From positions 1 to 32,762 of IMG/VR virus record IMGVR_UViG_3300006128_000031: a DNA stretch of 32,762 nucleotides; one strand, written 5' to 3'. Below, in pieces: positions 3,340 through 13,851 of the stretch (position 1 is its first letter; each line of letters starts with the position of its first letter). A program made the position numbers and the translations under genes. The notes beneath the pieces were generated by a model. That model did no database searches. It was not told the DNA's origin and was given only the letters and a program-made list of their open reading frames with translations. This DNA is from a virus.

Positions 3340-3966
3340 TTACTCCTCAAATTTGGCTTTGTATTTACTGAATCCTGTTTGCAGTCGCAGGTATTCGGTT
3401 TGGTTATCCCGCTTCATCTCTTCGATTGCGGGGAGGTTTGCAGTCCAAAAGGACTTCAACTTGACCAGTGAATCGCATATCTCCGCAAACTCGAGCATCG
3501 TGTCCACCAATACGGTTTGACCTTCCGGTGTATTGATGGGCTCGGGCTTGGGTTTCTCAACCTTCGTCACTGTAATTTGTCGCTTGCCTTCTTGCGGTGT
3601 CGCGTCCACTTCGTCATGCTCCGATAGCTCAAGTGCTATAAGCCACATGTAACGGCGCATGTATGTATGCGTTGCACCCAATGATTGAATGGGTTGGCCT
3701 TTCGAATTCTCTGCCATCACCAGCGGTGAAGTGAATTTGACAAAGCCGCCATTGGGTTCGGTGTCATAGATATCCAAATGCACCACGCCATCATGGATGT
3801 TAAACACCCCACACAGACCTACCGCGTCCATCATTTCATGGACCCTTGGCAAAAAGTCGCCAAGTTCAAAGTATTCAAACCCCGCAAATTTATTCTTGCC
3901 AGACTTCTTCAGGTTGGCCTTGGACAGTTCCATACGAACCGCTTGTAGCTTTCTGTAAACGCTCAT
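3340..3966 (-). CDS. erf: ERF-family single-strand annealing protein
   Basis: A 208-residue protein. The N-terminal half follows the ERF superfamily: KFAGFEYFELGDFLPRVHEM (about 26-45) and the signature QSLGATHTYMRRYMWLIALE (94-113), ending with the acidic HDEVDA. ERF proteins, as in P22 Erf, anneal complementary strands for RecA-independent recombination and genome circularisation or repair. The C-terminal third (residues about 130-208) is a variable linker and helical tail. It overlaps the upstream HTH gene by ATGA and cooperates plausibly with the adjacent RecB-like nuclease and SSB-like proteins. Confidence 0.85.
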   Translation of the reverse strand: MSVYRKLQAVRMELSKANLKKSGKNKFAGFEYFELGDFLPRVHEMMDAVGLCGVFNIHDGVVHLDIYDTEPNGGFVKFTSPLVMAENSKGQPIQSLGATHTYMRRYMWLIALELSEHDEVDATPQEGKRQITVTKVEKPKPEPINTPEGQTVLVDTMLEFAEICDSLVKLKSFWTANLPAIEEMKRDNQTEYLRLQTGFSKYKAKFEE

Positions 3967-4187
3967 TTCTTACTCCTTATGCTTACCTTGTTAACCTTGG
4001 TTACTACTGGCAACTCAACAACGTCAAAGACATCTAAGTCCACCAGTATCGAAACTGCCTTTGGTACTCTCACCGTACCGTTACACCACCTTTCTATTGA
4101 CCTACTACTGCAATCCAAGATGTCAGCAAACTGTTGCTTGGATATGTTTTTCTTTTTCAGATAATCATTCAGTTCCTGATAAGTCAT
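3963..4187 (-). CDS. small HTH (XRE/Cro-like) regulator
   Basis: The 74-residue product begins MTYQELNDYLKKKNISKQQF; the start at 4187 is chosen because AGGAG lies about 8 bases upstream, whereas the longer frame to 4307 has no signal and reads through the end of the nuclease gene. Helix-turn-helix residues are about 16-40 (KQQFADILDCSSRSIERWCN) followed by G-T-V-R-V-P, as in lambda-repressor-like domains. It lies between the ERF and nuclease genes and could regulate this leftward operon. Confidence 0.7.
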   Translation of the reverse strand: MTYQELNDYLKKKNISKQQFADILDCSSRSIERWCNGTVRVPKAVSILVDLDVFDVVELPVVTKVNKVSIRSKK

Positions 4188-5052
4188 CGACCTGCTCCTG
4201 TTTAAACTGTGAACACCAGCTCGCAACACCACAGAAGTTGCCAGTGCAACGAATGGCTTCGGCTTTGCGGGTTTCCACAATACCTTTAATTGATTCAGCC
4301 ATCGCATCTGCCTCTTCCTTCACTTCGAAAAGTTTGATTGCTCTTTTACTCTGCGGATTCTTCATGACCGCATACTTGGTCTCGCGCACCCAGCGGTCCT
4401 CATCGGTGCAAAGCGGTAGCTCTTCCATCCAATCCGCTTGGACCTTCGATTCTTGATGCATGTTGATACGCTCAAGAATAAACTTCTCAGTCTGCTCCAA
4501 ATCCCATAGCGGAATGTCCACCATCTGGATAGGTGCTTGCGGATAGTCCGGCTTCATGGCCGCTTCTCTGCGGTTCCAGTCGCGAATCAAAGCGCAAATC
4601 TTAAGCGAACGTACGCGCTTGCCCTTGACCTTGTTCACCATGTATGCGTAGATGTTTTGTTGTTGTTGCCAATCCATCTTGTCCGCACGTAGAGCCCAAG
4701 CGGATGTGAATTTGTAGTCAGTAATGTCAACATCATCACCGTCAATGTGTTGCAAATCAATCGCTCCGGATAGCTTGACGCCACCCACCTCGATGAACAA
4801 TCGCTCCTCATTGATGTGGCCTTCGACTTCAGAACGCTCTGCCACCACATGCAGGGCAGAACCCAGCAGGGACCAGAGCATATCCGCAACATCTTGTTCC
4901 ATCTCATGGTAATGCTTCGCTCGCAGTCGTTGCACCCGAGGGGGAGAGATGATTTCTGTAACAGAATAATCAGCCTTTCCCTTGCTATAGTACTCACGTG
5001 TCGCTAGACTCAGGAGAGTCGCAGGGACGTTGTGTTTGTTGGTTACTTTCAT
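4165..5052 (-). CDS. RecB/Cas4-like PD-(D/E)XK exonuclease with Fe-S cysteines
   Basis: The start at 5052 has AAGGAGG seven bases upstream; 295 residues. Motifs of the RecB-like nuclease fold are visible: GSALH (64-68), GAIDL with D99, TDYK with D112 and K114, and QQQNIYAYM (130-138, the Q...Y motif). Four cysteines, C215 and then C269, C274 and C280 near the end, are arranged like the 4Fe-4S site of AddB/Cas4 nucleases. It probably resects DNA ends to feed the ERF annealing protein. First gene of the leftward operon; a promoter candidate lies just upstream. Confidence 0.8.
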   Translation of the reverse strand: MKVTNKHNVPATLLSLATREYYSKGKADYSVTEIISPPRVQRLRAKHYHEMEQDVADMLWSLLGSALHVVAERSEVEGHINEERLFIEVGGVKLSGAIDLQHIDGDDVDITDYKFTSAWALRADKMDWQQQQNIYAYMVNKVKGKRVRSLKICALIRDWNRREAAMKPDYPQAPIQMVDIPLWDLEQTEKFILERINMHQESKVQADWMEELPLCTDEDRWVRETKYAVMKNPQSKRAIKLFEVKEEADAMAESIKGIVETRKAEAIRCTGNFCGVASWCSQFKQEQVDDLSGTE

Positions 5053-5075
5053 AAACCTCCTTGTTAAGAGCTTCC

Positions 5076-5104
5076 ATGATAGCACTACTTTTTACACCAT
5101 GCAA
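5076..5104 (-). promoter_or_regulatory. candidate promoter of the leftward recombination operon
   Basis: On the minus strand TTGCAT (5104-5099), a 17-base spacer and TATCAT (5081-5076) lie 24 bases upstream of the nuclease start. The -10 box matches 5 of 6 consensus bases, the -35 only 3 of 6. The -35 overlaps the ATG of the divergent RusA gene. Confidence 0.45.
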
Positions 5105-6048: not shown

Positions 6049-6270
6049 ATGCGAGACTACAAACACGAGTACCAGCTTCAACTGAAGCGCGGTGATGACA
6101 AGGGACAAATAGAACGGCAACGCGCAAGGCGTATGCTGGACAAGGACGGTGTCGATAGAGCTGGAAAGAACATCGACCACATCAAGCCCATCAAATCAGG
6201 CGGTCTCTCGACCAAGGGCAACCTGAGACTTCGCTCCCCCAAGGCCAACAAGTCCGACAACAAAAAATGA
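6049..6270 (+). CDS. small HNH-like endonuclease domain protein
   Basis: A 73-residue, strongly basic protein. The segment NIDHIKPIKSGGLSTKGNLR (41-60) then SPKANKSDNKK fits a compact HNH fold: D-H at 43-44, and G-N-L and N-K-S-D corresponding to the later N and H/N positions. The N-terminal part is helical and Arg/Lys-rich (QRARRML). It has a good ribosome-binding site (AGAGGTG) and overlaps the primase-helicase start (ATGA). It may nick DNA during replication or packaging. The final HNH ligand is not obvious, so activity is uncertain. Confidence 0.65.
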   Translation: MRDYKHEYQLQLKRGDDKGQIERQRARRMLDKDGVDRAGKNIDHIKPIKSGGLSTKGNLRLRSPKANKSDNKK

Positions 6271-7958
6271 ATGTCGAGGATTTCATTGCATCGCTCAACG
6301 TGGCGGTGCATAAAAGAGTTCCCTGCCCTCTTTGTTCTGACGAGAGGAAAAAAAAGAATGCCAAAGACTTCGACATCCGCAGGACTGACGATGCTTGGCA
6401 ATACTTCTGCCATCACTGCGCCGCCTCTGGCGCTGTTACGTTTAAACAACCCAAGTTTTACCCGGTAAAAAAAATGCAAGTTCAAGCCATCAATCCCCAG
6501 ACATACGACTTCCTCAAAGACCATCACTACGACTACCTAGCCAAGCGCGGTATCACCAAGACAACGGCTGACGTTTACCAGTTGTTCTCCGCCGAGAAGT
6601 ATTTCTCACGCATCGCCAAGAAGACCGACTCGATTGGCTTCCCCTACTACCAAGGCGGCAAGTTGGTTGGGGCCAAGTACCGCTCGATTGAAAGCAAAGA
6701 CTTCACACAAGAGCTTGGCGGCTCGCAGGTTTTCTTCGGCATCGACTTGGTGGACACCGCCCTTCCGGTTGTGATTGTGGAGGGTGAGATTGACGCGCTC
6801 ACGCTCACCGAATGCGGTATCAAAAATGTTTTAAGTGTTCCATCGGGCGCTCCGCTCAAGGTATCGGACGGAAAGATTGACGCAAGCGAGGACAAGAAGT
6901 TCTCCTTCGTCTGGGCGGCCAACGAGGTTTTAAACAAGGTCCCCTACGTGGTCATCGCGGTAGACACCGACTCTGCGGGACAAGCCTTGGCCGAGGAGCT
7001 TGCGAGGCGTATCGGCAAAGACAAATGCCGCATCGCCAAATCGGATTACAAGGACCTGAATGATGCCTTCATGGCGGAGGGTGCTGACAAGGTCAAAGAG
7101 ATTATCGATGCCGCCGAACCATATCCGGTTGCGGGATTAAGTTCAGCCCGTAAGTTTGAAGAACGTTTAAACGACCTATTCAACAAAGGGACCGGCAAGG
7201 GTGAGAGTACTGGGTACGCCAACGTGGATGAGATTTACACCATCGCTCAGGGCCAGCTTTCAATCGTCACCGGATATCCATCCAGCGGTAAGAGTAACTT
7301 TGTGGACCAGTTGATGGTTAACCTTGCCAAGAAGCATGATTGGAAGTTTGCCATTTGCTCTTTTGAAAACGCTCCCGAGATTCACATCTCGCGGTTGATG
7401 GAGATTTATTCCAAGAAGCGGTTCTTTGATGGGGATAACAAAATGACCCCAGAAGAAAAGACGCAAGCATTTAAATGGGTGGAGGAGCACTTCCTGTTTT
7501 TGGATTCGGAAGGTGCTGAGCCCGCATCGATTGATTCGATTATCGAGAGGGCCAAGGTTGCTGTCGCCCGAATCGGGATTCGCGGTCTGGTGGTTGACCC
7601 CTACAACTACATCGACAACAAAGGCAATCAGGCGGAGCACGAGTTCATATCGACCATGCTGACGCGAATACAGGCCTTTTGCAAGGCTTTCGGGGTCCAC
7701 ACATGGTTTGTTGCACACCCATCAAAAATAACGCGCTCTGGCGTTGAATTGCCGCGTCCTGATGGCATGGCTATCAGTGGTTCGATGGCGTGGTGGGCAA
7801 AGGCCGATTGCGGGGTGACCATCCATCGCGGTAAAGGCACAACGGTTGAAGTCGCTGTTTGGAAATGCCGCTATCGGTGGGTTGGTACTCAGGGCGAAAC
7901 GACTCTCGAGTTTGAACGAGGCACAGGGACCTACAAAGAATCGATGGATGACTTCTGA
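6267..7958 (+). CDS. T7 gp4-like bifunctional primase-helicase
   Basis: A 563-residue protein with all domains in order: zinc finger with C20-x2-C23 and C48-x2-C51; TOPRIM primase core with VEGEIDALTL (171-180) and DTDSAG (233-238); and a RecA/DnaB-type hexameric helicase with Walker A GYPSSGKSN (336-344) and Walker B LVVDPYNYI (441-449). It primes the lagging strand and unwinds DNA at the fork. The length matches T7 gp4 (566). It contains two GTTTAAAC copies, and a third abuts its stop codon. No DNA polymerase gene is in the window, so that partner must lie outside or come from the host. Confidence 0.92.
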   Translation: MNVEDFIASLNVAVHKRVPCPLCSDERKKKNAKDFDIRRTDDAWQYFCHHCAASGAVTFKQPKFYPVKKMQVQAINPQTYDFLKDHHYDYLAKRGITKTTADVYQLFSAEKYFSRIAKKTDSIGFPYYQGGKLVGAKYRSIESKDFTQELGGSQVFFGIDLVDTALPVVIVEGEIDALTLTECGIKNVLSVPSGAPLKVSDGKIDASEDKKFSFVWAANEVLNKVPYVVIAVDTDSAGQALAEELARRIGKDKCRIAKSDYKDLNDAFMAEGADKVKEIIDAAEPYPVAGLSSARKFEERLNDLFNKGTGKGESTGYANVDEIYTIAQGQLSIVTGYPSSGKSNFVDQLMVNLAKKHDWKFAICSFENAPEIHISRLMEIYSKKRFFDGDNKMTPEEKTQAFKWVEEHFLFLDSEGAEPASIDSIIERAKVAVARIGIRGLVVDPYNYIDNKGNQAEHEFISTMLTRIQAFCKAFGVHTWFVAHPSKITRSGVELPRPDGMAISGSMAWWAKADCGVTIHRGKGTTVEVAVWKCRYRWVGTQGETTLEFERGTGTYKESMDDF

Positions 7959-8015: not shown

Positions 8016-8035
8016 AACCCGCTCGATGGCGGGTT
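8016..8035. terminator. bidirectional terminator between convergent operons
   Basis: AACCCGC, loop TCGATG, GCGGGTT, flanked by an A run on the left and T-rich sequence on the right, so it can stop transcription from both sides. It separates the primase-helicase gene from the leftward operon ending at 8063. The 104-base gap also holds a GTTTAAAC copy and one AACTAGTGTCAA repeat. Confidence 0.85.
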
Positions 8036-8062: not shown

Positions 8063-8278
8063 TTAGTGCTTTGTTTCGGTTGGGGGGGTCATGTCGTAGG
8101 CCTCAACAACCTTGTCGCTGATGAAGGCCAACAGTTCCAGCGGGTCAATCCTGTTTGACCTAGCGACCCCAATCGCCAAGGTCAGGAACATGACCAGCAC
8201 ATCATCGGCGGCCTCACCGAGCAAAGACTGAGAGAAGGTTTCAAACTTCTCAATCAGTTCGGTATCAATCGTTTTCAT
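8063..8278 (-). CDS. small hypothetical protein at the end of the MoxR-VWA operon
   Basis: A 71-residue, mainly helical acidic protein (MKTIDTELIEKFETFSQSLL) with a hydrophobic helix DDVLVMFLTLAIGVA. It overlaps the VWA gene stop by ATGA and has AAGGA upstream. It could be a small partner of the MoxR-VWA system; no family is recognised. Confidence 0.65.
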   Translation of the reverse strand: MKTIDTELIEKFETFSQSLLGEAADDVLVMFLTLAIGVARSNRIDPLELLAFISDKVVEAYDMTPPTETKH

Positions 8279-9069
8279 TTCAATCCTTTCAAGAGTTTAC
8301 TGAAGGCAACACTACCAAGGTCATCGACCGAATACACATTCTGTGCATTATCGAAGCATTGTTCAACATCGGTGCGACCGATACCAATCGCCACCAATTT
8401 GATTTTGTGCTTATCGGCCATTAACTGAATGTGGCGCATATTGTCAGGGTTATAACCAGAAGCATCGGTAATCAGAAACAAAACCTTACGAGTTTCGGGG
8501 CGCATCCGGAGCTCATCGACAGTGCAGAACAGGGCCGCATAATCGGGAGTGCCGCCGGTGACCATCATGCTCATGTAACCAAGCTTGGGGGCGGCTTTTA
8601 ACAGCGGCTCATTCCATTGTTTAAACGGTATAAACTTTGCCGTCTCGACAATCAGTTCTTTGATTTTCGCAGAACCCGATTCCTGTTTGCTGAAGTATTC
8701 GCCACCACCATTTTTGAATCCGGTCACGCAATACGAAGCCTTGGCATTATCCAAAAGCTTGCAGAGTTGAATCGTCACCGCCTGAGCAACAGGCATTTCA
8801 TTGTGCATCGAACCCGAGCAATCAACCAGAACCGAAACCGCAGAGGTCTCCGACTCTTCAAGAGTGCGGCGCGAAAAGATATTGGCCGAGCCAGTCGCGA
8901 ATCGGGTGAATGCCTTGCGGTCAATACGTCCCGACTCTTCATGGGTATTCCAACCAACCATATCCATCGACCGCAGAAGCCGAGATAATTCGGCGCGGAC
9001 AGAACCTAAACCCTGCGGGGTTTTATTAAACTTAGCCGCAAACATTTCCAAACCATGTTGTTTGTTCAT
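8275..9069 (-). CDS. VWA-domain protein (CobT C-terminal-like)
   Basis: A 264-residue protein; start MNKQHGLEMF at 9069 chosen (a TTG two codons earlier overlaps the upstream stop). The von Willebrand A fold shows a complete metal-ion-dependent adhesion site: DCSGSM (83-88), T174 in TGGTPD, and D202 in LITDAS. The residues before it (about 15-75) are rich in Arg, as in CobT-type proteins. VWA proteins act as substrate-binding partners of MoxR AAA+ ATPases. Directly downstream of the metallopeptidase gene and near the ATPase; together they look like a CobS/CobT system with CobT split in two. Confidence 0.85.
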   Translation of the reverse strand: MNKQHGLEMFAAKFNKTPQGLGSVRAELSRLLRSMDMVGWNTHEESGRIDRKAFTRFATGSANIFSRRTLEESETSAVSVLVDCSGSMHNEMPVAQAVTIQLCKLLDNAKASYCVTGFKNGGGEYFSKQESGSAKIKELIVETAKFIPFKQWNEPLLKAAPKLGYMSMMVTGGTPDYAALFCTVDELRMRPETRKVLFLITDASGYNPDNMRHIQLMADKHKIKLVAIGIGRTDVEQCFDNAQNVYSVDDLGSVAFSKLLKGLK

Positions 9070-9071
9070 AA

Positions 9072-10007
9072 TCAATCCCAGTTAAATTCATAATAGACAG
9101 GCTTACCAACGGCGGGAGTTTCTTTCTTATCGCCACCGCCCAGTTGCTTGGTGATGAAACCGTTGGGGTCAACGTCACGCTCACCGTCATCCCCATCGCC
9201 CCCCTTGGCGTCAGCGTTGGGCTCATCGCCTTGCTCATCCCCTTGCTCATCGCCCTGCGCCGGACCGCCATCACCGTCAGCGGGGTCATTCGACTCACCG
9301 CTGGGCTCAGGCGAGTTGCCCTGAGTGGTTTGTTCGGGATTATTCTGCTGTTCTTTATCAAGCTTATCCTTGGTCTTTTGCAATCGCTTGTTTAGCTCAA
9401 TTGCAATCTCAACGATTCGCTCAGTATTGTCAGCAACCTTGGCAAGATTAATCGCCCAATCAATGTCAGCACCGTAAGGCGAAGCAGAGATAATCGACTC
9501 GGCGGTAATCCCATAACCGTTTAAACGTCTACCCTCGATGGCAAGCATAAACGGTATGTTTTTGTAATCGTCCGGCTCAACATAACCTTTGGCGAGAATA
9601 TTGTTGACCAGAGATTCAAACAACAGTCGCGCATTGGGTGCGTGACCGGAGTTGATAACCTTCATCTCGATTCGCGGGTCTTCAAGACCGTTGATTAACT
9701 TGTGAACAAAATGACCGTGGGCATTGCGAGCATTATCCCAAGGCTCATTCTTGGTAAACCAAGCATGACCAAGCTCGTGCAAGGCATAACCAATCAGGTC
9801 ATTGAATCGCGACTTGGGTATGTCGGCATTCTCATCGATACTGGGGAAGATAATCTTGGCGTTCAGTCTGCCGTATTTATCATCGAAGATAATGCCAGCA
9901 GTCTCACCGGACCAGACAATCTCCAGCGTATCGAATTGATTGCCGGAAGATTTGAAGATTCTCTCAAGCGTAGAGCTAACACCACGCTGAACATCGATAC
10001 CTAACAT
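9072..10007 (-). CDS. CobT N-terminal-like zinc metallopeptidase with acidic linker
   Basis: A 311-residue protein; start MLGIDVQRGV at 10007 has GGGGGT upstream, while the longer frame reads back through the ATPase gene. HELGH (77-81) is a zinc-binding metallopeptidase motif and INGLEDPRIE (105-114) supplies the likely third ligand, as in CobT-type and phage VWA-associated peptidases. Residues about 215-290 are a low-complexity Asp/Gly/Pro/Gln region containing the tandem repeat GDEQ. It could process or unfold host or virion proteins with the adjacent ATPase and VWA protein. It does not contain a VWA domain itself. Confidence 0.8.
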   Translation of the reverse strand: MLGIDVQRGVSSTLERIFKSSGNQFDTLEIVWSGETAGIIFDDKYGRLNAKIIFPSIDENADIPKSRFNDLIGYALHELGHAWFTKNEPWDNARNAHGHFVHKLINGLEDPRIEMKVINSGHAPNARLLFESLVNNILAKGYVEPDDYKNIPFMLAIEGRRLNGYGITAESIISASPYGADIDWAINLAKVADNTERIVEIAIELNKRLQKTKDKLDKEQQNNPEQTTQGNSPEPSGESNDPADGDGGPAQGDEQGDEQGDEPNADAKGGDGDDGERDVDPNGFITKQLGGGDKKETPAVGKPVYYEFNWD

Positions 10008-10008
10008 A

Positions 10009-11475
10009 TTAAACCCCCACAAGATATTGTTTGATTTTCGCGGCATCGATAACCGCAATGTAAATACCCTGCAATTCGCTTTCGCATTCAGCGGGATACT
10101 TATTGATAACCGCATTCTCATAAGCGGTCTTAATGGGCAAGCCTTTCTTAATGGCGCGAGCCCAAGCGAATAACTGACGCAAGCTGGGAGGCTGAGTAAG
10201 CAAACCAGCGCGAGCCTTTTCGCGAGCAGTGTTGGCGAGTTTGACAATAAGCTCAGCCGCACCGAACGGCAAACCTGTGCGGGCCACAATCAAATCGGTT
10301 TCTTTCTTGGGAGGAAGATAATCGAATTGAAGGGTATAACTGAAGCGGTCAATAAAGGCCGAGTTCATTTCTCGAACACCAGTGAAGTTGCCGCTGGTAT
10401 TGCCATAACCGTTCGAGTTATCGGCGCAAAAGAAAACCACGTGCGAAGCGACTGGGATTCTCTGGCCTGTTTCCGAAACGGTCAGTGCGCGGTGCGGCGA
10501 ACGCTCACACAAAGAGTGCAGAACAGCAATCGACTGGGCGCGAGCAAAACCGATTTCATCGAGCAAGATAATCGCGCCAGCATATTGAATGGCCTGAGTA
10601 ATAATCCCAGCCTTCCACACAACAGAGCCAGCGTCAATCGAGTTGCCACCGATAAAGTCGGCACGTTCAAGCGCCTCGTCAAAGTTAATCCGGAACAAGC
10701 GCCGACCGAGTCGGGCCGCAATCTGAGAAGCGAATTCTGTTTTACCAGTACCGCGCTCACCAGCGAGCCAGCAGTTATCGGGAAGCTCATCGCTCAGGGC
10801 AACCAAGGCCTGATGGAGAATGACAGGGTTGAAGACATAATCATCAACCATTTTCGGGGCATTGACATCGCCCCAGTATTCAATATCCATGTCACCAAAA
10901 TCAACCGTCTCGCCATCGACAACGTATTTGCAAATGTCGCCGAATAATTCCTTGGCTTTCTTGAGAGTGGTTGCGGGAATAACAGCGGCAATCTCTTGAA
11001 TACGTTCGACAGGGGTAACCTGTTTAAACGCATCAAACTGAGAAGCAATCGCGGCGCGAATCTCGTTATTGACCTTGGTGTAATCAACACCAGTAATCGA
11101 TTGAAGCTTTGCCTCAATATCATCGGTCAGTTTCCGATGAGCCTCATTAACAAGCTGTCTGTCATTAACGATTTTTTTGAGAAGATTATCAACATCGGCG
11201 CGAATCGAATTGACATTTGCCTCAGCGGTAGTCGCGCTGATAACCGCGTCATTAATCTGGGCCACAATCATAGGGTCAGCGGTAGCACCAGCCTGAACCA
11301 TTTTAAGTGGTTGCATTTGCTTGCAAAGCTCGAGAGTCAAGCCGCCCTGATTAATGTAATGCTCGCAAGCATTAACCGCTTCAACCTGAGTGGGCTTGGC
11401 ATCAACGCCAATATAAACAAGAGCCGCATTAAGTTTAGCGGCAGGGATTAAGGAAAGCTGCATTCTGATATTCAT
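10009..11475 (-). CDS. MoxR/CobS-like AAA+ ATPase
   Basis: A 488-residue protein; start MNIRMQLSLI at 11475 follows TGCGAGGTTATT. The N-terminal 200 residues are helical, probably coiled-coil (about 85-145). The AAA+ core has Walker A GERGTGKTE (239-247), Walker B AIILLDEIG (301-309), a polar sensor strand VVFFCADN (346-353), an Arg-finger region FIDRF (374-378) and a sensor-2 helix PSLRQLFAW (430-438). MoxR/CobS ATPases remodel proteins or insert metals with VWA partners; in T4-like cyanophages related cobS genes are common. Here it heads the ATPase-peptidase-VWA set. Confidence 0.88.
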   Translation of the reverse strand: MNIRMQLSLIPAAKLNAALVYIGVDAKPTQVEAVNACEHYINQGGLTLELCKQMQPLKMVQAGATADPMIVAQINDAVISATTAEANVNSIRADVDNLLKKIVNDRQLVNEAHRKLTDDIEAKLQSITGVDYTKVNNEIRAAIASQFDAFKQVTPVERIQEIAAVIPATTLKKAKELFGDICKYVVDGETVDFGDMDIEYWGDVNAPKMVDDYVFNPVILHQALVALSDELPDNCWLAGERGTGKTEFASQIAARLGRRLFRINFDEALERADFIGGNSIDAGSVVWKAGIITQAIQYAGAIILLDEIGFARAQSIAVLHSLCERSPHRALTVSETGQRIPVASHVVFFCADNSNGYGNTSGNFTGVREMNSAFIDRFSYTLQFDYLPPKKETDLIVARTGLPFGAAELIVKLANTAREKARAGLLTQPPSLRQLFAWARAIKKGLPIKTAYENAVINKYPAECESELQGIYIAVIDAAKIKQYLVGV

Positions 11476-11488
11476 AATAACCTCGCAA

Positions 11489-12043
11489 TTAAAGGGTGAA
11501 TTGATTGTTATCGACAGGGCAAACAGGCAAACCGACATCCGCCCATTTCTTGGTGAGCCGGATAGTAAATCCGCAAGCGGGGCAATATGCTTTGAGCAAT
11601 CGAGTGCCTTGGGTTTTGTATTTATCCTCCGCGTTTAAACGAGCGTGAGGATAAGCGCCGAGAGATTCAGTGAGCGGCCCGAGATTCTCTTTGAATTGCT
11701 CACCCACAACCGTATGCGTGGGCTTGCCATCTAGGAAAAGCTTTTTGACCAGAGCGGGAAAGCGTCCCTTGTGACCGTCACCATCGGTAGCCGCGTGGGC
11801 CAACTCGTGGACCAGAATGCCCATCACCTCAATAGGATTATCCTGTTTGGGGGTGATGAATATCTCGTGGTGATTATCGGCAGACGCGGCGGGAGAGTGG
11901 TGCTCACCGATAACCGCACCGCGACCACCGCGACTTGGGAAGCCGCAGGTCACCCGAATCTTGTCGGGTAATGGATGCCCAACAGATTCAAACAAAGGCC
12001 GGAGAGATTCAACGGCCAGATTCAACCAGTCTTCACGTTTCAT
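11489..12043 (-). CDS. SprT-like zinc metalloprotease
   Basis: A 184-residue protein; start MKREDWLNLA at 12043 follows TGCGAGGTG. SprT signature VHELAHAATDGDGHKGRF (78-95) gives the HExxH zinc site with H91 as the third ligand. The C-terminal zinc-ribbon-like part has CPAC (154-157) and one further Cys (C175), so the ribbon looks incomplete. The eukaryotic relative Spartan cleaves DNA-protein crosslinks. It is the gene before the MoxR ATPase in the operon, giving two metalloproteases in one transcription unit. Confidence 0.85.
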   Translation of the reverse strand: MKREDWLNLAVESLRPLFESVGHPLPDKIRVTCGFPSRGGRGAVIGEHHSPAASADNHHEIFITPKQDNPIEVMGILVHELAHAATDGDGHKGRFPALVKKLFLDGKPTHTVVGEQFKENLGPLTESLGAYPHARLNAEDKYKTQGTRLLKAYCPACGFTIRLTKKWADVGLPVCPVDNNQFTL

Positions 12044-12111: not shown

Positions 12112-12201
12112 TTAAATGTTCCAGAGAACGTAGAAAAAGTAACCGAACATTAATATCACAAAGATAATCGCGCAGAACAGGTCATACAAAAATGATTTCA
12201 T
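12112..12201 (-). CDS. single-TM mini-protein (29 aa)
   Basis: A 29-codon frame beginning MKSFLYDLFCAIIFVILMF and ending VLWNI. It is one membrane helix rich in Phe, Ile and Leu. The start overlaps the stop of the upstream gene by ATGA, which strongly suggests coupled translation. Possible roles are membrane perturbation or modulation of a host membrane protein; none can be shown from sequence. Confidence 0.55.
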   Translation of the reverse strand: MKSFLYDLFCAIIFVILMFGYFFYVLWNI

Positions 12202-12380
12202 TTCTCATCCTTCACACAATCGATGTAAGCAATCACATCTCTACGGTACGTGAACGTTCGGCGTTCGCCAAAAAAGTCAAGCCTGTATCGCCCCCAATAT
12301 CCGGTTGGCACATTACTGTTTAACTGAAACTGTATGCCGCGATATTCAAACTTATCGCCGCCAAGCTTAATGATTTTCAT
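12198..12380 (-). CDS. small hypothetical protein (60 aa)
   Basis: Start MKIIKLGGDKFEYRGIQFQL at 12380 is preceded by GCGAGGGG. The protein is basic, rich in aromatic residues and beta-prone (YWGRYRLDFFGERRTF), ending CVKDEK. ATGA overlaps at both ends. No family recognised. Confidence 0.6.
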   Translation of the reverse strand: MKIIKLGGDKFEYRGIQFQLNSNVPTGYWGRYRLDFFGERRTFTYRRDVIAYIDCVKDEK

Positions 12381-12508
12381 AATCCCCTCGCTTTCAAAGC
12401 CAGACATTCTTTATAGGAACCAGTAAAGATAATGCGATAGCTGTTGCGCACGTCACAACCTTTACAGACGATAATGTTGCCAAAGGCATTCACTTGGGCG
12501 GTGTACAT
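12377..12508 (-). CDS. small hypothetical protein (43 aa) with CxxC
   Basis: A 43-residue frame starting MYTAQVNAFGNIIVCKGCDV. GGGAGG lies six bases upstream, the start abuts the stop of the DUF7417-like gene, and the end overlaps the next start (ATGA). The CKGC pair and a third Cys (KECLAL) hint at metal binding, but a full ligand set is lacking. Function unknown. Confidence 0.6.
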   Translation of the reverse strand: MYTAQVNAFGNIIVCKGCDVRNSYRIIFTGSYKECLALKARGL

Positions 12509-12685
12509 TCAAGCCTCCCAGATTAAACCGTCAGCAATTAACTGCTGAGCACAACGACCGTACCAGCCTTGAAGTTGCCAAGCCATGCCTGTATTAACCA
12601 GATATTGCCAAGCTTCCAGATATTGCTCCTGAGATTCATAATCGATGAAACCTTCAACGATTTGAATTGCCTTAATAGAATCCAT
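12509..12685 (-). CDS. DUF7417-like small phage protein
   Basis: A 58-residue protein starting MDSIKAIQIVEGFIDYE at 12685 after CTGCGAGGTGATT. The stretch EAWQYLVNTGMAWQLQGWYG (24-43) followed by R.A..LI..G is the hallmark of a widespread short phage family (I recall it as DUF7417) found in many cyanophages and jumbo phages. It is mainly helical and Trp-rich. The family function is unknown. It is the first confidently called gene of the leftward MoxR-VWA operon. Confidence 0.75.
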   Translation of the reverse strand: MDSIKAIQIVEGFIDYESQEQYLEAWQYLVNTGMAWQLQGWYGRCAQQLIADGLIWEA

Positions 12686-12703
12686 AATCACCTCGCAGAT
12701 AAT

Positions 12704-12745
12704 CGATGCAAACCGCATCGGACAGGGCTCTCATAAAACCCTGTC
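12704..12745 (-). promoter_or_regulatory. tandem leader hairpins before the DUF7417-like gene
   Basis: Two adjacent perfect hairpins in the minus-strand leader: GACAGGG/CCCTGTC (12739-12745 with 12721-12727, 11-base loop) and CGATGC/GCATCG (12704-12720, 5-base loop). They end just upstream of the shared ribosome-binding-site element TGCGAGGT. They could stabilise the mRNA or control translation. Confidence 0.5.
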
Positions 12746-13146: not shown

Positions 13147-13851
13147 ATGATTAAAGAGCCAAACGAAGCATTTGAAGAGCCTCAAGAGGGTTTAAACGAG
13201 CCGCATGATGATGCTGGTGTGGATAATGACGAACGCAATGGTAAGGCGGGGGATTCCTCGAATGAAATCAGCGAAGCGATGCGGATAGCTGTTGCAAAAG
13301 TAAGAGAAAAGAAAACAAAGAATGGAAAGGTATATGGTGTAAAGAATAGAGAGGATAAAAGGATTACTCCAAAGATGAGATTGTTCAGCTCTTTAGTGGC
13401 TCAGGGACATTCACCCAAGGAAGCCTACAAAAAAGCCTACGATGTAAGAACCACCAACGAGGCAGTGATTCAGGGTAATGCGAACAAACTGATGAAAGAT
13501 GGGCGGATAAGTGGATTAATGGAGTCTGTCTGGGACTCTGTAAAAGAAAACATAGTTGACGACCAAGTGGCCGCTAGACGCAAGATTATGGGAGACCTAC
13601 TCAAGCATGCGGATAATGAAACAAACAGGCTTGGTGACCGTTTAAAGGCTTTGGAGCTAATGGGTAAAGCAATCGGTATGTTCACCGATAGAGTTGAATC
13701 AAAGATTGAAGAGATTGATTCAGACAAACTTAAACGTGAGCTCGATGGTCATATACAGTCATTCAACACCGCCAAGATGAAAGCGTCATTGAAGATAATC
13801 AAGCGCTCGACTCCAACCGATAATGGCGATTCATCTGCGCAGGCCGTTTAA
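13147..13851 (+). CDS. terS: small terminase subunit
   Basis: A 234-residue protein. The first 60 residues are acidic and unstructured. Residues about 75-120 (KMRLFSSLVAQGHSPKEAYK then NANKLMKDGRISGLME) match the DNA-binding helices of phage small terminases, and LKALELMGKAIGMFTDRVES (about 175-195) is a typical C-terminal oligomerisation helix. It recognises the packaging site and loads the large terminase. The ribosome-binding site is GAAAGGG. Its stop codon TAA lies within a GTTTAAAC copy. The LexA-like gene separates it from terL, which is unusual. Confidence 0.8.
   Translation: MIKEPNEAFEEPQEGLNEPHDDAGVDNDERNGKAGDSSNEISEAMRIAVAKVREKKTKNGKVYGVKNREDKRITPKMRLFSSLVAQGHSPKEAYKKAYDVRTTNEAVIQGNANKLMKDGRISGLMESVWDSVKENIVDDQVAARRKIMGDLLKHADNETNRLGDRLKALELMGKAIGMFTDRVESKIEEIDSDKLKRELDGHIQSFNTAKMKASLKIIKRSTPTDNGDSSAQAV

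Follow-up and report, generated by a model that had tools for sequence, protein, structure and literature searches.

What would a tailed phage do with an operon that encodes, side by side, an AAA+ ATPase, a VWA protein and two putative zinc peptidases? The question is posed by a stretch of 32,762 nucleotides, hereafter the window, from IMG/VR record IMGVR_UViG_3300006128_000031, a tailed phage that has genes for terminase, portal and head in the window. An original prediction made from the letters of the sequence described a leftward four-gene operon with associated mini-proteins, and the description is accurate: the open reading frames lie where it placed them, all on the minus strand, and family searches agree with its assignments. 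The SprT, AAA+, zincin and VWA genes follow one another with almost no spacing from 12043 to 8275 (Table 1).

Table 1. Coordinates of the operon and its neighbors in the window.
Feature	Coordinates	Strand	Evidence
SprT-like zincin, HELAH...H, 184 aa, C-terminal Cys zinc ribbon	11489..12043	-	PHROG 6361, AF2 model, site and ribbon counts
CobS/MoxR-type AAA+ ATPase, 488 aa; GERGTGKT, LDEIGFAR, sensor N353, R377	10009..11475	-	Pfam, PHROG 249, PDB profiles
Zincin, 311 aa; HELGHAWF...LINGLEDPRIE, acidic low-complexity C-terminal tail	9072..10007	-	Profile match, AF2 model, ligand conservation
VWA protein, 264 aa, MIDAS motif DCSGS / T / D	8275..9069	-	Pfam CobT_C, PDB CobT, DxSxS counts
71-aa ORF, overlaps VWA stop codon, last operon gene	8063..8278	-	ORF list
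Primase-helicase, convergent neighbor, downstream in surveyed lineage	6267..7958	+	PHROG 239 E 3e-91
Terminase small subunit, divergent neighbor, upstream in surveyed lineage	13147..13851	+	PHROG 51 E 2e-9

The short ORF that closes the operon had no family match in Pfam or PHROG and no relative in the surveyed cassettes (tblastn, 1e-5); other mini-protein ORFs, of 69, 43 and 69 aa, lie within 12198-12718. Terminator-like sites number 15, against 5.9 in shuffles (sd 2.6), and one of them, at 8016-8035, falls between the convergent genes; a promoter scan returned 10 against 6.9 (sd 3.0), not clearly above chance. At 3340-5085, beyond the rightward primase-helicase gene, an Erf-like ssDNA-annealing protein and an exonuclease are encoded leftward, on the strand of the cassette. 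A near-DNA search of the phage collection found no match to the window, and a scan of genomes with the zincin profile, seeking a host or prophage, found none.

Relatives were collected in three scans of viral contigs, each with one cassette gene and each limited to at most its best 80 loci, a sample that leans to close relatives. The scans returned at least 158 viral loci, which reduce to 77 distinct cassettes, 61 complete and 16 cut by contig ends. Among the matches listed, the order SprT, AAA+, zincin, VWA on one strand is found in all 61 complete distinct cassettes from IMG/VR, and zincin and VWA occupy separate frames in 65 of the 65 cassettes showing both. Spacers to the small terminase gene (about 0.7-3 kb) and to the primase gene (0.4-2.5 kb) vary while the cassette itself stays compact; the flanks therefore change and the cassette does not. 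The same genes in the same order, together with conserved active-site residues, show that the operon is not a chance arrangement. Co-occurrence of the four genes in other phages, on which the original prediction had staked itself, is thus what the complete cassettes display, and its central proposal, that the phage has a dedicated MoxR-VWA-peptidase module to which an SprT gene is linked, is supported by the rigid conservation observed. Because the SprT-bearing loci, which come from a sizeable set of uncultured viruses, all belong to one viral lineage, they represent one ancestral arrangement that was kept, not many independent assemblies, and the SprT linkage counts as one evolutionary gain, later retained. 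By large terminase, the nearest isolates are 023Pt_psg01, HTVC027P and DSL-LC04 (53-56% identity) and Pag-Yong1 (46%), none of which has an AAA+ or SprT match anywhere in its whole record. A gene for a GroES-like co-chaperonin was seen between the portal and head genes of the nearest terminase isolates (L167, L168, L169 and L170).

The ATPase is readily placed in the CobS/MoxR group. It matches Pfam AAA_5 (5e-16) and CbbQ_C (4e-8), PHROG 249 (4e-41), and, by profile, PDB structures of Midasin (8e-42), CobS (5e-28) and NorQ (1e-19); an AAA_5 core, Walker A and B motifs, sensor asparagine, arginine finger and CbbQ/NorQ-type C-terminus are all present. Residues K245, D306, E307 and N353 are kept in 88 of 88 sequences and R377 in all 87 that are readable at that position. 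At two loci (L023 and L105) the AAA+ gene falls in two frames, by frameshift, assembly error or real overlap. The VWA protein matches Pfam CobT_C (8e-10), PHROG 1576 (4e-19) and the solved CobT 9uka_G (E 1e-17), and profile comparison aligns it with the C-terminal half of the fused viral CobT (E 1e-35). Its MIDAS motif is well preserved, with DxSxS in 78/78, the last aspartate in 77/77 readable sequences and the threonine in 72/78. Six loci (L147, L015, L019, L149, L021 and L160) have asparagine for the threonine, as NPDY or NPDF, and keep DxSxS and the last aspartate.

The HELGH protein is more elusive, with no Pfam match and weak matches to PHROGs 459 and 1576. The latter is a single 729-position profile that covers the HELGH part as well as the VWA part, which indicates that the two are one protein elsewhere. 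A search by tblastn of GenBank phages gave no match, so kinship is shown through profiles: hhalign places the zincin on the N-terminal half of the fused viral CobT (probability 99%, E 2.8e-18), pairing HELGH with HEAGH and LEDPRIE with LEDxxxE. A search of PDB sequences with the zincin profile returned nothing significant. The AlphaFold (AF2) model is mostly confident over residues 1-220, and the top structures on re-alignment were nearly all zinc peptidases (Ste24 at Z 6.6, abylysin, selecase, SPRTN, BlaR1), weak matches at Z 5-7; with Foldseek alone, neither this model nor that of SprT had a match with E below 0.001. Cellular CobT was not among the fold matches listed, which is evidence neither way.

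Conservation of the predicted zinc ligands, a further point on which the original prediction had staked itself, is nearly complete. Among 87 sequences, H77 and E78 occur in 87 and H81 and E109 in 86, the gluzincin-type combination of HExxH and a distal glutamate thus being present in 86 of 87. The sole exception, L021, has an intact frame and has lost H81 (to F) and E109 (to Q) at the same time, a pattern that fits the binding of one zinc by both; a locus lacking the zinc site also implies that catalysis is not indispensable everywhere. Five loci (L090, L106, L129, L161 and L162) read HEGLGH, an HExxH with one extra residue, and retain LEDPRIE. Dipeptidyl peptidase III has a similar site, HELLGH. 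Motif, correlated loss and fold matches, the last of them weak, support the label of peptidase for the CobT-N-like domain as a predicted activity.

The gene that heads the operon was recognized through PHROG 6361 (2e-41). No Pfam family scored above threshold; PF10263 gave no hit to the window protein, and its relatives reach 15-17 bits where the cut-off is 25.6. Its AlphaFold (AF2) model re-aligns better with SPRTN 6mdw (Z 9.0) than with any other zincin in the PDB re-alignment, HELAH...H is accompanied by C154, C157 and C175, and relatives in GenBank phages are annotated as SprT-like. Of 84 loci, 6 no longer have the HE of HExxH (L096, and L176, L184, L185, L186 and L191 of the fused-gene subclade described below), with differing replacements; three changes on the fused-subclade tree plus L096 make at least four events. 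The three ribbon cysteines persist in all 84 loci, apart from a single residue in L060; loss and intact loci show about equal conservation of the N- and C-terminal parts. A catalytic site lost at least four times beside a retained zinc ribbon suggests that SprT is probably in part an adaptor with a non-catalytic role. Where the SprT catalytic site is lost, the zincin of the same locus keeps its own site; the protease site of the machine itself is therefore the more constrained. Linkage of a second protease, as predicted, is confirmed, but the notion that it degrades a target does not hold generally, its site having been lost several times, and the gene also stands beside the fused form of zincin-VWA.

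That fused form emerged when fused viral CobT-like proteins served as queries for a scan, which revealed a sister subclade of twelve loci in the same lineage, arranged SprT, AAA+, fused zincin-VWA; its large terminases are mostly 73-75% identical to that of the window and its primase-helicases about 60%. Since SprT is also present there, its association is not tied to the split. On a tree of the AAA+ proteins, the split group and the group with fused protein plus SprT each form one side of a branch, so that a single change suffices for the split and another for the SprT association; this is a quick tree with several long branches and no inferred root. A sequencing frameshift as source of the split was ruled out by its recurrence in all 65 distinct cassettes. 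In one locus of the fused subclade, L185, zincin and VWA lie in two overlapping frames, which may be a frameshift, an assembly error or a real overlap. The prediction that CobT is split into separate genes therefore stands, although as a single change on the AAA+ tree and with a precedent in the haloarchaeal virus HHTV-2 (PMC8651126).

Known phage systems supply the nearest parallels. Viral CobS-CobT pairs of T4-like cyanophages, Zobellviridae, Rhizobium phages and haloarchaeal viruses likewise place a CobS-type AAA+ gene beside a gene for an HExxH...EDxxxE-VWA protein; here, by contrast, every close relative has zincin and VWA as two genes, and SprT heads the operon. None of the GenBank pairs examined has SprT beside it, nor does SprT adjoin the fused pairs that lie outside the lineage (those of Zobellviridae, Roseobacter, Microcystis and Rhizobium phages, and S-WAM1). 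In phage N4 (Schitoviridae), gp24/gp25 similarly comprise an AAA+ and a metallopeptidase-VWA protein, but of the DUF2201 family, fused, and without an SprT annotation in the region that was read. N4 gp25, with HELWH and DTSGS, matches DUF2201_N at 3e-87 and DUF2201 at 1e-46. It was published as a vWFA protein of function not known (PMC2784036); at L281:3165-4307 it shows a full DUF2201_N metallopeptidase domain before the VWA-like domain. That N4 has another such pair suggests that the combination of AAA+ with metallopeptidase-VWA is a recurrent phage tool. Viral CobST pairs, the split CobT of HHTV-2 and N4 gp24/gp25 are thus precedents, to which the present lineage adds a split within a SprT-led operon. 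Our literature search found no paper on SprT with cobS in phages, or on CobT with metallopeptidase and VWA.

We lean, with somewhat better than even confidence, toward a phage AAA+ remodeling protease, a MoxR-VWA-zincin machine with SprT as partner, whose likeliest job would be stripping or cutting protein bound to viral DNA. As in its family, the CobS/MoxR-type ATPase would form a pulling ring; the MIDAS metal of the VWA protein, by comparison with Midasin, NorD and CobT, would grip the ring or the substrate; and the zincin, on account of its conserved zinc site, which by itself is no proof of proteolysis, would cleave the remodeled protein. SprT would be a partner in which the zinc ribbon and N-terminal region are most constrained and the protease site is common but dispensable, its ribbon directing the complex, possibly to DNA-bound protein. 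MoxR-type ATPases with VWA partners remodel targets (PMC13036017, PMC7159879, PMC8837202), and the Midasin, NorQD and RavA-ViaA chaperones also combine a MoxR-clade AAA+ with a MIDAS VWA partner. Several viral CobST pairs lie amid replication and recombination genes, and SprT genes in other phages amid genes for DNA polymerase, helicase, SSB and exonuclease. We know of no zincin or SprT associated with the Midasin, NorQD or RavA-ViaA systems. The proposed task, around replication and packaging, would resemble that of Cdc48 with Wss1, a SprT-like protease that partners with this AAA+ protein (PMC4559962). The likeness of SPRTN/Wss1 with p97/Cdc48, an SprT-like zincin linked to an AAA+ ATPase, is an analogy only, as the AAA+ here is of MoxR/CobS type and the SprT site is sometimes lost. 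Resting on gene neighborhoods and analogy, the target is perhaps DNA-bound.

Published work points elsewhere, proposing for viral cobST generally (PMC8651126) that viral CobS and CobT hijack host CobN and raise cobalamin production, and a peptidase annotation of viral CobT has been called mistaken. Homology does link the cassette to aerobic cobaltochelatase CobN-CobS-CobT: the AAA+ and VWA proteins match NCBIfam CobS (PD_CobS, 3e-17) and CobT (5e-6), the zincin shares homology with the N-terminus of CobT by way of the fused viral proteins, and these in turn match Pfam CobT (PF06213) over their HExxH-bearing N-terminal region (8e-11 and 2e-15). The NCBIfam scores, however, at 63 against a cut-off of 558.6 bits for CobS and 25.6 against 759 for CobT, fall far below what is set for equivalogs. 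In the solved CobT 9uka_G, GDSMAL pairs with the HExxH segment and EQARVE with EDxxxE, the ligands being absent, and HExxH occurs in 0 of 75 cellular CobTs from alphaproteobacterial genomes (sampled among the close relatives of a single query); viral CobT-N-like proteins keep HExxH and EDxxxE and so lack the chelatase type of N-terminus. Neither CobN nor the large subunit of ribonucleotide reductase was found in the window plus six longer contigs, which are possibly incomplete, and SprT has no role in the scheme. We consider a helper of cobaltochelatase improbable. As judged from conserved residues, the data argue against the published view and for a peptidase-like N-terminal part of viral CobT. 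With a zinc protease site kept here and absent from the true B12 enzyme, the cobaltochelatase label for these viral genes is probably wrong, and the machine is probably not a cobaltochelatase; this conflict is the most valuable result of the analysis. Confusion between two enzymes named CobT apparently explains why a VWA/CobT-like protein of Escherichia phage Cyrano (OV696614.1, 44475-45224) bears the annotation dimethylbenzimidazole phosphoribosyltransferase.

Two further readings keep the remodeling machine but change its target. The AAA+-VWA pair could be a virion-assembly chaperone, acting on a capsid, portal or tail protein that it remodels or trims, while the zincin serves as maturation protease; the cassette adjoins terminase genes, and a viral MoxR-VWA pair for tail assembly in an archaeal virus is cited in PMC7159879. 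We think this unlikely, because the cassette is on the strand opposite the structural genes and coupled to SprT, and because the nearest terminase isolates, which lack AAA+ and SprT, assemble nonetheless. Degradation of a host defense or regulatory protein early in infection would accord with the common strand of the cassette and the recombination genes at 3340-5085, and with the MoxR-VWA pairs and peptidase effectors of prokaryotic conflict systems (PMC7159879). That reading appears improbable: PADLOC gave no match beyond generic AAA scores, and the cassette is kept in every readable relative in the lineage, though relatives were sought with cassette genes. Host-directed genes are usually variable between relatives. 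The same PADLOC scores leave a defense system unsupported.

The remodeling protease that we favor admits a broader form, which we offer tentatively: viral CobST generally might be an AAA+ metalloprotease, not a cobaltochelatase, and cellular CobT might carry its protease domain in decayed form, this lineage having recruited SprT, sometimes as a pseudo-enzyme ribbon adaptor, for the removal of proteins from viral DNA, as a phage counterpart of Cdc48-Wss1. The pattern of SprT losses offers a way to ask what SprT does without proteolysis. The literature presents viral cobST as vitamin-B12 genes; should the protease site prove active, phages would be seen to carry their own AAA+ metalloprotease, and both those annotations and the B12 ecology drawn from them would need revision.
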